NCBI RefSeq assembly: GCF_030063355.1
Contig: NZ_JASISZ010000013.1
Coordinates: forward strand, 1 to 64,000
Reading direction: 5' to 3'
From: Streptomyces sp. PH10-H1
GTDB lineage: Bacteria > Actinomycetota > Actinomycetes > Streptomycetales > Streptomycetaceae
DNA length: 64,000 nucleotides
Positions 54,196 through 57,730 of this stretch are shown piece after piece. Below the pieces are notes generated by a model, which saw only the letters and a program-made list of their open reading frames with translations, ran no database searches and was not told the DNA's origin. A program made the translations under genes and the position numbers. Every line of letters begins with the position of its first letter. The stretch's first letter is position 1.

Positions 54196-55011
54196 CTACG
54201 CTCGCGCGAGGAGCCGTTCCAGGACGACGGCGATGCCGTCTTCGTCGTTCGAGGTGGTGACCTCGTCCGCGACGGCCTTCAGTTCATCGTGCGCGTTGGC
54301 CATCGCGACGCCGTGGGCGGCCCACGCGAACATCGGCAGATCGTTCGGCATATCGCCGAAGGCGATGGTGCCGGCGGCCGTCAGGCCCAGCCGGCGGGCG
54401 GCGATCGCGAGGCCGGTGGCCTTGCTGAGGCCCAGCGGCAGCAGCTCGACGATGCCCTCGCCCGCCATCGTCACCCCGACCAGATCGCCCGCGACCTCGC
54501 GCGCGACCCGGGCCAGACCGTCGTCGTCCAGGCCCGGGTGCTGGAGGTAGAGCTTGTTGAGCGGGGCGCTCCACAGCTCGCTGTCGTCCTGCATATGGAT
54601 CACCGGCAGCTCGGGGTGGTGCTGGTACCCCGCGCCGATCAGCACCTCGCCGTCGAGGCCGTCACGGCTCGCGGCCAGGAAGAGCGGGCCGATCTCGGCC
54701 TCGATCTTCGCCAGCGCGAGCCCGGCGAGCTGGCGGTCGAGCGTGACGGACGTCAGCAGCCGGTGCTCGCCCGCGTGGTAGACCTGCGCCCCCTGGCTGC
54801 AGACCGCGAGGCCCTCGTAGCCCAGGTCGTCCAGGATGTGCCGGACCCAGGCCACGGAACGGCCGGTGACGACGAGGTGGGCCGCGCCTGCCGCGGTGGC
54901 CGCGGCGAGCGCTGCCCGCGAGCGCTCCGAGACGGTGTTGTCGCTGCGCAGCAGCGTGCCGTCCAGATCGGTGGCGATCAGGTGGTACGGGAGGGACACG
55001 GGGGAACTCAC
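54196..55011 (-). CDS. Cof-type HAD phosphatase co-transcribed with serS
   Basis: A 271-residue Cof/YidA-type HAD enzyme: [13 protein letters not shown] (motif I, about residue 14-25), VVTGRSVAW (II), KATGL (III), [13 protein letters not shown] (IV). GTG 55011 overlaps the serS stop by four bases (GTGA), so it is translated with serS; a link to seryl or nucleotide side products is possible but not shown. The preceding 230-bp gap (53966-54195) is GC-rich, with short degenerate repeats and no gene. Confidence 0.87.
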
Positions 55012-56285
55012 TTGCTGACCGGCTCCAGGAACTCACGGCCGCCCAGGTAGGGACGCAGTACCTCCGGGACCCGGACCGAGCCGTCGGCCTGCTGGTGGTT
55101 CTCCAGGATCGCCACGATGGTGCGCGGTACGGCGCACAGCGTGCCGTTGAGCGTGGCGAGCGGGCGGGTGCCCTTCTCGTCGCGCAGCCGGATCGAGAGC
55201 CGGCGGGACTGGAACTCGGTGGTGTTCGAGGTCGAGGTCAGCTCGCGGTACTTGCCCTGGGTGGGAATCCACGCCTCGCAGTCGAACTTGCGCGACGCCG
55301 AGGAGCCCAGGTCGCCCGAGGCGAGTTCGATCACCTGGAAGGGCAGTTCCAGGGCGGTCAGCCACTGCTTCTCCCAGTCCAGCAGCCGCTGGTGCTCGGC
55401 CTCCGCGTCCTCCGGCGTGGTGTAGACGAACATCTCGACCTTGTCGAACTGGTGCACCCGGATGATGCCGCGGGTGTCCTTGCCGTACGAGCCCGCCTCG
55501 CGGCGGTAGCAGGGCGAGAAGCCCGCGTACCGCAGCGGCAGCTTGGCCGCGTCGATGATCTCGTCCATGTGGTACGCGGCGAGCGGGACCTCGGAGGTGC
55601 CGACCAGGTACAGGTCGTCCTTCTCCAGGTAGTAGACGTCGTCCTCGACCTGGCCGAGGTAGCCGGTGCCGGCCATGGCCGCCGGCTTGACCAGGGTGGG
55701 GGTGAGGATCGGGATGAAGCCGGCCGCGGTGGCCTGCGCGACGGCCGCGTTGACCAGGGCCAGCTCCAGCAGCGCGCCGACGCCCGTCAGGTAGTAGAAG
55801 CGCGAGCCGGAGACCTTGGCGCCGCGGTCGACGTCGATGGCGCCGAGCAGCTCGCCCAGCTCCAGGTGGTCCTTGGGCTCGAAGCCCTCGGCGGCGAAAT
55901 CGCGCGGGGCACCGAGCTGCTCGAGGACGACGAAGTCCTCCTCGCCGCCGATCGGCGCGTCCGGGTGGACGAGGTTGCCGAGCTGGAGCAGCAGGCGCTG
56001 GGCCTCCTGCGCGGCCTCGTTCTGCTCGGCGTCCGCCGCCTTGACCGCGGCCGAGAGCACGCCGGTCTTCTTCAGCAGTTCGGCCTTCTCGTCCCCCTGT
56101 GCCTTGGGGATGAGCTTGCCGAGCTGCCGCTGTTCGGCGCGCAGTTCATCGAAGCGATGACTGGACGACCTGCGCCGCTCGTCGGCGGAGAGGAGGGCGT
56201 CGACGAGCGCGACGTCCTCTCCACGGGCGCGCTGGGAGGCGCGCACACGGTCGGGGTCCTCACGAAGCAGGCGAAGGTCAATCAC
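55008..56285 (-). CDS. serS: Seryl-tRNA synthetase
   Basis: Charges tRNA-Ser (and tRNA-Sec) with serine. 425 residues, the normal bacterial length: an N-terminal helical arm (about 30-105), then the class II core with motif 2 [11 protein letters not shown] and motif 3 [21 protein letters not shown] 56285 begins [16 protein letters not shown], the conserved head. A HAD gene is translated from its end. Upstream lies the DnaA-box-rich gap shared with pheA. Confidence 0.96.
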
Positions 56286-56480
56286 GGCTACAGGCTACCG
56301 GGGCTGAGGGGCCGGACGCGACAAGTTAAGGGCTTTAAGTGGCGTTATGTCCGTTTCGATGAAAAGGGGAGCGAAATGCAATAACGGACAAAAGGTCGCC
56401 GTCAACCGAATTCACCGCATCCCTCCATCGGGGCATCGTCCTTGTGGAGAACGGGAGTTGAGAGGGGGTGCGGGCCCGGG

Positions 56481-56790
56481 TTATCCACAGGCGGATGGGG
56501 ATTCTTTTCCTTTGTCCACAGGTTGTGTGTGCGAACTGTGGAAGACGGAGTTGATCGTTCCGGGTGCTCCGTGCTCGGCGAAGGATTCCCGGTCGAAACC
56601 CACTTAACACTCACTTTCGAGTGAGAAGTGTTCCCCCTATAGAGTTGATCAGAGGAATTGGGCTGACGAAGGGTGACCTGCGCCACTGTGGACGACCTCG
56701 GTGGCTGTGTACCGATTTGTCGACTAGGTCGGGTTGGTCTGTCGACTTATCCCCAGTTATCCCCAGGCTGAGCTTCCGGCCTGTGGATAA
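56481..56790. other. Cluster of DnaA boxes between serS and pheA
   Basis: Within the 518-bp gap 56286-56803 are: TTATCCACA 56481-56489 (+), TTGTCCACA 56512-56520 (+, the preferred Streptomyces box), TCGTCCACA on the minus strand at 56687-56695, TTATCCACA on the minus strand at 56782-56790, near-boxes TTATCCCCA at 56747-56755 and 56757-56765, and a weaker TCTTCCACA at 56537-56545 (-). Seven boxes in 310 bp is far above chance. oriC itself lies between dnaA and dnaN, which are not here, so this would be a titration or control site. The rest of the gap shows a lower GC content and no gene. Confidence 0.75.
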
Positions 56791-56803
56791 CTTCGTGGAC
56801 GAC

Positions 56804-57730
56804 TCAGCCCCGCCCGTCCAGCGCCCGTCCCAGCCAGTCCGCCGCCTCGGTGAACTCGCTGTCCGTCGTTCCGGGGCGCACCTGCGGCCGCACCGTGTCG
56901 GCCCGCGGATAGGAGCCCAGGAACCGCACCTGCGGGCAGATCCGCTTCAGACCCATCAGCGCCTCGCTGACCCGGCGGTCGGTGATGTGCCCCTCGCAGT
57001 CAACCGAGAAGCAGTACCGGCCGATGCCCTCACCCGTCGGCCGCGACTCGATGCGCACCAGGTTCACCCCGCGCACCGCGAACTCCTGGAGCAGTTCCAG
57101 CAGCGCGCCCGGGTGGTCGTCCCCGAGCCAGAAGACAGCCGACGTCTTGTCCGCACCGGTCGGCGCCGCCGGGCGGGCCGGGCGGCCGACCAGGACGAAG
57201 CGCGTCGCCGCGTTCCTCGCGTCATGGATCTCGGTGACGAGCGGCTCCAGACCGTACGTGGGCGCCGCGAACTCGCCCGCGAACGCCCCGTCGAAACGGC
57301 CCTCCTGCACCAGCCGCGCCCCGTCCGCGTTCGACGCCGATGACTCCCACACGGCGTTCGGCAGCTGGGCCCGCAGCCACTTGCGCACCTGCGGCTGCGC
57401 GACCGGATGCCCGGTCACCGTCTTCACGTCCGTGAGCTTGGTGCCCGGCCGCACCAGCAGCGCGAACGCGATGGGCAGCAGCACCTCGCGGTAGATCATC
57501 AGCGGCACGCCGGTCGCCAGCTCGTCGAGGGTCGCGGTCACCCCGCCCTCCACCGAGTTCTCGATCGGCACCAGCGCCCCGCCGGCCTCGCCGTTGCGCA
57601 CGGCGTCCAGCACGGCCGGCACCGACACCATCGGGACCAGCTCGCGGGTCGCCGCCTCGGGAAGCGTGCGGAGCGCGGCCTCGGTGAATGTGCCTTCAGG
57701 ACCCAGATAGGTATAGCGGCTCGCCGACAT
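56804..57730 (-). CDS. pheA: Prephenate dehydratase
   Basis: Makes phenylpyruvate for phenylalanine synthesis. 308 residues: a two-lobed dehydratase domain (1-185; YLGPEGTFTEAAL, PIENSVEGGVTATLDEL, catalytic Thr in NAATRFVLVG) and an ACT domain (about 195-275) with the regulatory ESRPTGEGIGRYCFSVDCEGH that binds phenylalanine for feedback inhibition. Monofunctional; no chorismate mutase is fused. ATG 57730 starts the conserved head. Confidence 0.95.
   Translation of the reverse strand: MSASRYTYLGPEGTFTEAALRTLPEAATRELVPMVSVPAVLDAVRNGEAGGALVPIENSVEGGVTATLDELATGVPLMIYREVLLPIAFALLVRPGTKLTDVKTVTGHPVAQPQVRKWLRAQLPNAVWESSASNADGARLVQEGRFDGAFAGEFAAPTYGLEPLVTEIHDARNAATRFVLVGRPARPAAPTGADKTSAVFWLGDDHPGALLELLQEFAVRGVNLVRIESRPTGEGIGRYCFSVDCEGHITDRRVSEALMGLKRICPQVRFLGSYPRADTVRPQVRPGTTDSEFTEAADWLGRALDGRG

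Follow-up and report, generated by a model that had tools for sequence, protein, structure and literature searches.

Streptomyces species grow as long multi-genome hyphae and carry a linear chromosome, and how the initiation of its replication is limited is poorly understood. For S. coelicolor, the accessible parts of three papers describe clusters of DnaA boxes as repressors of untimely initiation (PMC4585315, PMC5742627, PMC10950094). All three cite Smulczyk-Krawczyszyn et al. 2006 (J Bacteriol 188:6184) for these clusters, and the first locates them "close to oriC". The initial annotation of the locus studied here had pointed to a DnaA-box cluster outside oriC of S. coelicolor, and as far as these texts go this precedent is real. 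Here, we analyzed the gap between serS and pheA in a window of 64,000 nt from Streptomyces sp. PH10-H1. We consider it very likely that this non-coding gap holds a predicted high-affinity DnaA cluster in the vicinity of oriC, orthologous to an initiation-restraining, datA-like titrating cluster of S. coelicolor. Sites of this type have been described before in S. coelicolor, and the serS-pheA cluster is a further member. Helical phasing, conserved non-box elements, a family-wide comparison and a variant with a flipped box D are reported here for this cluster.

DnaA boxes in the serS-pheA gap and elsewhere in the genome

The 518-bp gap contained three perfect boxes (TTRTCCACA) and four boxes with one mismatch. 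The features are given below with their positions in the window; fractions of 76 refer to an alignment of 76 gaps.

55008..56285, minus strand: serS, seryl-tRNA synthetase, flanking gene (profile TIGR00414)
56286..56803, no strand: serS-pheA intergenic gap, whole element, 518 bp, 56.8% G+C (from ORF borders and composition)
56443..56451, minus strand: outlying near box TTCTCCACA, one mismatch, outside 56481-56790, in several close relatives too
56481..56489, plus strand: box D, TTATCCACA, perfect, 31 bp from C; perfect in 64/76 gaps
56512..56520, plus strand: box C, TTGTCCACA, perfect; perfect in 72/76 gaps
56537..56545, minus strand: box C', TCTTCCACA, two mismatches, 25 bp from C; box-like (≤2 mismatches) in 69/76 gaps
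56546..56562, no strand: dyad-like element, CGGAACGATCAACTCCG in the window, CGGAATGATCAATTCCG in the majority consensus
56583..56591, minus strand: element a3, CGGGAATCC, partly conserved, non-box
56641..56650, minus strand: element a2, GATCAACTCT, conserved, non-box
56687..56695, minus strand: near box TCGTCCACA, one mismatch, weakly conserved (≤2 mismatches in 34/76 gaps)
56712..56723, minus strand: element a1, TCGACAAATCGG, conserved, non-box; GTCGACA occurs twice in the 87-locus consensus, and this is the second copy
56747..56755, plus strand: second copy of box B, TTATCCCCA, one mismatch, 10-bp tandem duplication
56757..56765, plus strand: box B, TTATCCCCA, one mismatch, 25 bp from A in opposite orientation
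56782..56790, minus strand: box A, TTATCCACA, perfect; TTATCCACA in 73/76 gaps
56794..56802, minus strand: position of box A', TCGTCCACG, two mismatches here, 12 bp to the pheA side of A; box with ≤1 mismatch in 47/76 gaps
56804..57730, minus strand: pheA, prephenate dehydratase, flanking gene (NF008865 and Pfam PDT/ACT)

The doubling of box B (56747-56765) amounts to about one helical turn, and the alignment pairs the B box of the relatives with the copy at 56747..56755. The initial annotation had counted seven boxes or near-boxes between 56481 and 56790 and had named four sequences among them. This was right, with six boxes of at most one mismatch and C' as the seventh.

When the gap was shuffled 2000 times with dinucleotides preserved, no shuffle had more than one perfect box or more than four boxes with ≤1 mismatch, versus three and seven observed. 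The whole genome (8,544,745 bases) has 53 perfect boxes versus 19 for the pattern read backwards, and at the genome rate a stretch of 518 bp should contain 0.003 of them. An artefact of composition was rejected on the basis of the shuffles and the genome-wide count. The search of the gap against Rfam gave only a sub-threshold match to mir-92 (16.7 bits, gathering score 47), and the tRNA search of the window found none; the presence of a protein-coding gene or an RNA gene within the gap was rejected. No sigma-70-like promoter was found in the gap by a promoter scan, which is weak evidence in Streptomyces, and the terminator scan returned one weak terminator-like hairpin, which is about chance level. 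As in the clusters of S. coelicolor, several boxes thus stand in a non-coding gap beyond chance.

The sole DnaA match above the family cut-off in the genome was located on contig C160 and not on the contig of the window, in line with the annotation's view that the gap, with dnaA absent from the window, is not oriC. The cluster beside dnaA, which we took as oriC (C160:41035-41598), has 15 boxes, none of them perfect; the gap adjoins serS and pheA instead. Groups of at least three boxes (≤1 mismatch) within 350 bp were present at only four places in the 503,061 bases examined. These bases comprised the neighborhoods of all 53 perfect boxes plus 200,000 bases from elsewhere, and a cluster made of imperfect boxes only and lying outside them would escape the count. 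A wider box pattern (655 places) was left out of it. The suggestion that the gap is the densest cluster outside oriC was true in part. By boxes with ≤1 mismatch it is the densest of the places examined (7 in 348 bp), but by perfect boxes it is surpassed by the rhomboid-crgA gap (C160:63529-63727, L012:8529-8727), which is about 23 kb from dnaA and has four in 199 bp, and a unique densest cluster was therefore rejected.

The remaining place was the dnaB-MATE gap (C160:4307-4569, L013:4307-4569) with two perfect and two near boxes; the genes at this and at the crgA cluster were named by profile. The dnaB-MATE cluster is located at the 5' ends of dnaB and the MATE transporter gene, about 35 kb away on the other side of dnaA, and long mechanical ORFs overlap part of it. 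The rhomboid-crgA gap contains TCCACAGATCTTCC, which is similar to the C' part of the serS-pheA consensus. At a similar distance from dnaA, about 22-23 kb, perfect boxes occur in groups of three in three relatives (G016, G152, G050).

In the oriC regions of 11 genomes, defined as the densest 700 bp beside dnaA, we found 5-17 boxes with ≤1 mismatch and 0-2 perfect boxes, versus three perfect boxes in the serS-pheA gap, a comparison of sequence only. The distance between pheA and dnaA was 78-104 kb in 10/10 relatives, which were chosen for few contigs; in the window's own genome dnaA is on a different contig. The cluster is thus near oriC and not part of it in all 10 relatives, as reported for S. 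coelicolor. In the two completely listed genomes, 18/60 and 18/51 of the perfect boxes were situated within 110 kb of dnaA. Together with the 0-2 perfect boxes in oriC, this indicates that perfect sites near oriC are mostly outside it. A second or relic replication origin would also appear as a DnaA-box cluster in a gap of 56.8% G+C, but dnaA and the 15-box cluster on another contig, the distance from dnaA in the 10 relatives and a box quality opposite to that of oriC render such an origin extremely improbable.

Conservation in the Streptomycetaceae

The cluster was present in 80/80 database loci (the best 80 of 579 PheA relatives), 78 of which belong to the Streptomycetaceae by name and two of which are named as actinobacteria. 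Each of these gaps had 1-4 perfect boxes and 4-8 boxes with ≤1 mismatch, and with the window included (81 gaps) the density of perfect boxes was 4.75 per kb, versus 0.021 in the flanks. A class-wide draw of 296 genomes revealed the cluster in 31/31 genomes of the same family, the own genome included, and in 0/32 loci from 18 other families (32 of 265 non-family genomes were fetched). In 11 of these 32 loci pheA and serS were adjacent with gaps of 25-430 bp and no cluster, which suggests that this family added the cluster to an older gene pair. Conservation in other species, which the initial annotation had named as a check, was found within the family. In a sample spread over the family, 25/30 loci and 13/15 genera had the cluster, and 14/16 sampled genera had it when both samples were taken together. 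Universal presence in the family was rejected, as two of the 16 genera lack the cluster in the gap. One short non-coding module was kept in place by most sampled genera, and it contains perfect boxes, of which oriC has hardly any.

In the two genera without a cluster in the gap (g107 and g110, L251-L255), 2-4 boxes were located upstream of pheA, at about 1.0-1.3 kb from its start and about 1.9-2.2 kb from its stop; relocation or independent gain is possible. Four loci (L200, L202, L203, L205), from some genomes of genus g2, have a further small box group downstream of pheA, about 7.6-9.6 kb past its stop codon, with similar spacings (25-27 and 19-20 bp); this group is not found in the window. 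In family f16 (L116, L117, L119, L120, L122, L124, L126) PheA is 74-78% identical to that of the window, closer than the other non-family matches listed, and no serS was present within the 3.6-3.9 kb examined. Horizontal transfer of this pheA is possible.

The usual order is box A, box B 23-25 bp further on in the opposite orientation, about 260 bp, and then boxes C and D 29-33 bp apart. The A-B spacing was 23-25 bp in all 112 loci with B assigned, although 22-27 bp was allowed; the narrow spread of the A-C and C-D distances in the 76-gap alignment is in part a consequence of the limits set for the search. The strict set of A, B, C and D was missing in 43/194 loci. Box D was flipped in genera g108, g109, g114 and g117, where the A-C distance was about 201-245 bp. 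A family-wide scan for two perfect C-D boxes matched 171/297 genomes, with zero in the reversed-control columns, and many of the misses are probably explained by the flipped-D genera, of which we looked at 14 loci.

The position of the cluster relative to its neighbors bears on two other roles. DnaA could act as a transcription factor for serS and couple translation capacity to replication: DnaA is known as a transcription factor elsewhere, the boxes stand upstream of serS, and conserved sequence is present just before the serS start. Boxes A-D are, however, about 195-505 bp from this start, the distance from D to serS varied between 143 and 369 bp (66 gaps), and the promoter scan, weak evidence as it is in Streptomyces, gave no sigma-70-like promoter. 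In genus g118 serS is 2.1 kb off and three Streptacidiphilus gaps are about 1.3 kb long, and in both cases the cluster stays beside pheA; by ORF reading, the intervening sequence contains long open frames. Since the cluster keeps its place at pheA even where serS is set apart from it, we regard a role in serS regulation as quite unlikely.

This attachment to pheA, and the position of box A behind the pheA stop codon in a fixed orientation, would suit a roadblock of DnaA on its box that ends pheA transcription. Box A, though, was anywhere between 8 and 402 bp away from the pheA stop, and a single terminator box needs no 300-bp module with phased spacing and inter-box elements, which makes a roadblock very unlikely and marginally less credible still than a role for serS.

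Spacing and conserved elements between the half-clusters

The majority consensus of the 87 loci with an A-C distance of 257-261 bp kept, besides the boxes, GGGGACAAGTCGACA, GTCGACAAATCG, GGTTTGA, CGGAATGATCAATTCCG and TCCACAGATC. AGATCT, an alternative DnaA site in E. coli according to the accessible text of PMC4285127, adjoins C' in this consensus and is absent from the window. The conserved inter-box elements offer bait DNA for a possible helper protein.

Binding of a helper protein to these elements would also fit a DARS-like function, i.e. reactivation of DnaA by ADP-to-ATP exchange and promotion of initiation, and DARS elements are short non-coding DnaA-box clusters as well. Against this, the S. 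coelicolor clusters are credited with repressing untimely initiation in the accessible parts of PMC4585315, PMC5742627 and PMC10950094, and we consider a reactivating function unlikely, if a little less so than the roles at serS or pheA.

The A-C distances were mostly 258-261, 268-271, 279-282 and 289-290 bp, and the raw distances alone did not single out one period. We scored a change of at least 5 bp as phased if it deviated by no more than 1.5 bp from a multiple of 10.5, cut-offs of our own choice. In the first test, which used non-overlapping species pairs on a pheA tree, 13/17 A-C changes of this size were phased (4.9 expected), while the controls gave 13/41 for the distance from pheA to A (11.7 expected) and 12/33 for the distance from D to serS (9.4 expected). 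Changes of 1-4 bp were common (19/36 pairs). Since the phasing had been noticed before it was tested, 58 further loci were taken (54 usable), all from genus g2, which was also present in the first set. Here, 8/9 changes were phased against an expectation of 2.6 (nominal p = 3e-4), or 7/8 without a 62-bp change that probably stems from a misassigned box A, and the control gave 9/21 (6.0 expected). When both sets were pooled, 16/19 changes were phased (5.4 expected; two doubtful 63-bp changes likely due to a misassigned box A are included) with a best period of 10.5, and the control was 19/60 (17.1 expected). The strict four-box set (147/194 pooled loci, discovery loci included) showed 18/24 phased changes (6.9 expected, nominal p = 3e-6) versus 16/61 in its control (17.4 expected), with a best-fitting period of 10.0 and not 10.5.

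The distance also changed in steps within the sub-intervals of these 147 loci. We found 57, 67/68 and 76-79 bp for A-a1, 71-73, 81-83 and 92 bp for a1-a2, 59, 69, 79 and 90 bp for a2-a3, and 70-72 and 81 bp for a3-C, with the anchors missing in 26, 70, 112 and 90 loci, respectively, and the larger steps resting on one or few loci. A few loci were off step, e.g., 86 bp for a1-a2 and 52 and 54 bp for a3-C. Steps in several sub-intervals argue that repeat expansion at one spot is not the whole explanation. Insertions and deletions of about 10 bp that arise by tandem duplication, without selection on phase, could be an alternative origin of the steps, and the window itself shows one such step in the 10-bp duplication of box B.

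The half-clusters A/B and C/D thus tend to keep their helical phase. Phase in all genera was not supported: relative to the Streptomyces-type spacing the flipped-D genera g117 and g114 were out of register, and g108 and g109 were borderline. That larger spacing changes are mostly whole helical turns looks new; neither helical phasing, a phased architecture with such non-box elements, nor serS-pheA neighbors of such clusters came up in the accessible text of the literature searched. If the phasing matters, insertions of 5 bp and 10 bp should act differently.

Proposed mode of action and comparison with known systems

The cluster probably soaks up DnaA and holds back chromosome copying. A DnaA-titration or initiation-control locus had been proposed already in the initial annotation, and the proposal gains support from the conserved position and largely conserved architecture, the distance from dnaA, and the perfect boxes as compared with oriC, and further from the observation that the cluster does not move along with the serS start where the two are separated. 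DnaA of PH10-H1 would bind the perfect boxes A, C and D ahead of the imperfect boxes of oriC. Because the locus is about 80-100 kb from oriC, it would be copied soon after initiation, which would double the sink and delay the next initiation.

A/B and C/D may further be joined by DnaA, and perhaps by a second protein, in a single complex that is looped or lies on one face of the helix, as suggested by the helical phasing together with the conserved elements between the half-clusters. The accessible part of PMC13270200 describes a dimer of domain I of actinomycete DnaA and a long domain II in S. lividans DnaA, with a proposed link between distant oriC boxes; by extension, these properties would make a DnaA-bridged loop plausible. 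We judge the chances of a loop between the half-clusters to be about even. A more elaborate version is possible but doubtful: an active three-dimensional DnaA machine, in which selection keeps half-clusters about 260 bp apart on one helix face in Streptomyces-type genera, non-DnaA elements recruit a helper, and a loop switches DnaA activity. It would be an actinobacterial analogue of datA/IHF that arose in the family by insertion into the old serS-pheA junction.

The E. coli elements DARS1 and DARS2 are likewise small and non-coding and control DnaA from sites other than oriC, but they reactivate DnaA, whereas the Streptomyces clusters are reported, in the texts available, to repress. According to Okumura et al. 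2012, as cited in the accessible part of PMC4585315, untimely initiation is repressed by DnaA-box clusters near oriC in Bacillus subtilis. They share the near-oriC setting with the cluster described here, and the likeness is one of description. This also applies to E. coli datA, which occupies a different place: it is a non-coding DnaA-box cluster outside oriC with room for a helper protein between the boxes, and it restrains initiation, as is reported in the available texts on Streptomyces for the S. coelicolor clusters. Together with IHF, datA makes DnaA hydrolyse ATP. We know of no datA-type activity or helper for the serS-pheA cluster, which would at most work like datA; membership in the datA class is not claimed.

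The closest relatives remain the S. coelicolor clusters, for which an effect on initiation was reported. Text searches for the gene neighbors of the S. coelicolor cluster found nothing, and "D78" in the accessible text of PMC9610160 was rejected as it denotes an amino-acid residue. The three clusters reportedly described for S. coelicolor have their match in number here, where three non-oriC clusters were found at the places examined, in the crgA, dnaB and serS-pheA gaps. The original S. coelicolor study reportedly named its three clusters H69, H24 and D78, with D78 said to be the strongest DnaA binder and its deletion said to raise initiation. We take these to be cosmid names, and cosmid D78 would presumably hold serS-pheA. 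On this naming, the serS-pheA gap cluster would be the orthologue of S. coelicolor D78.
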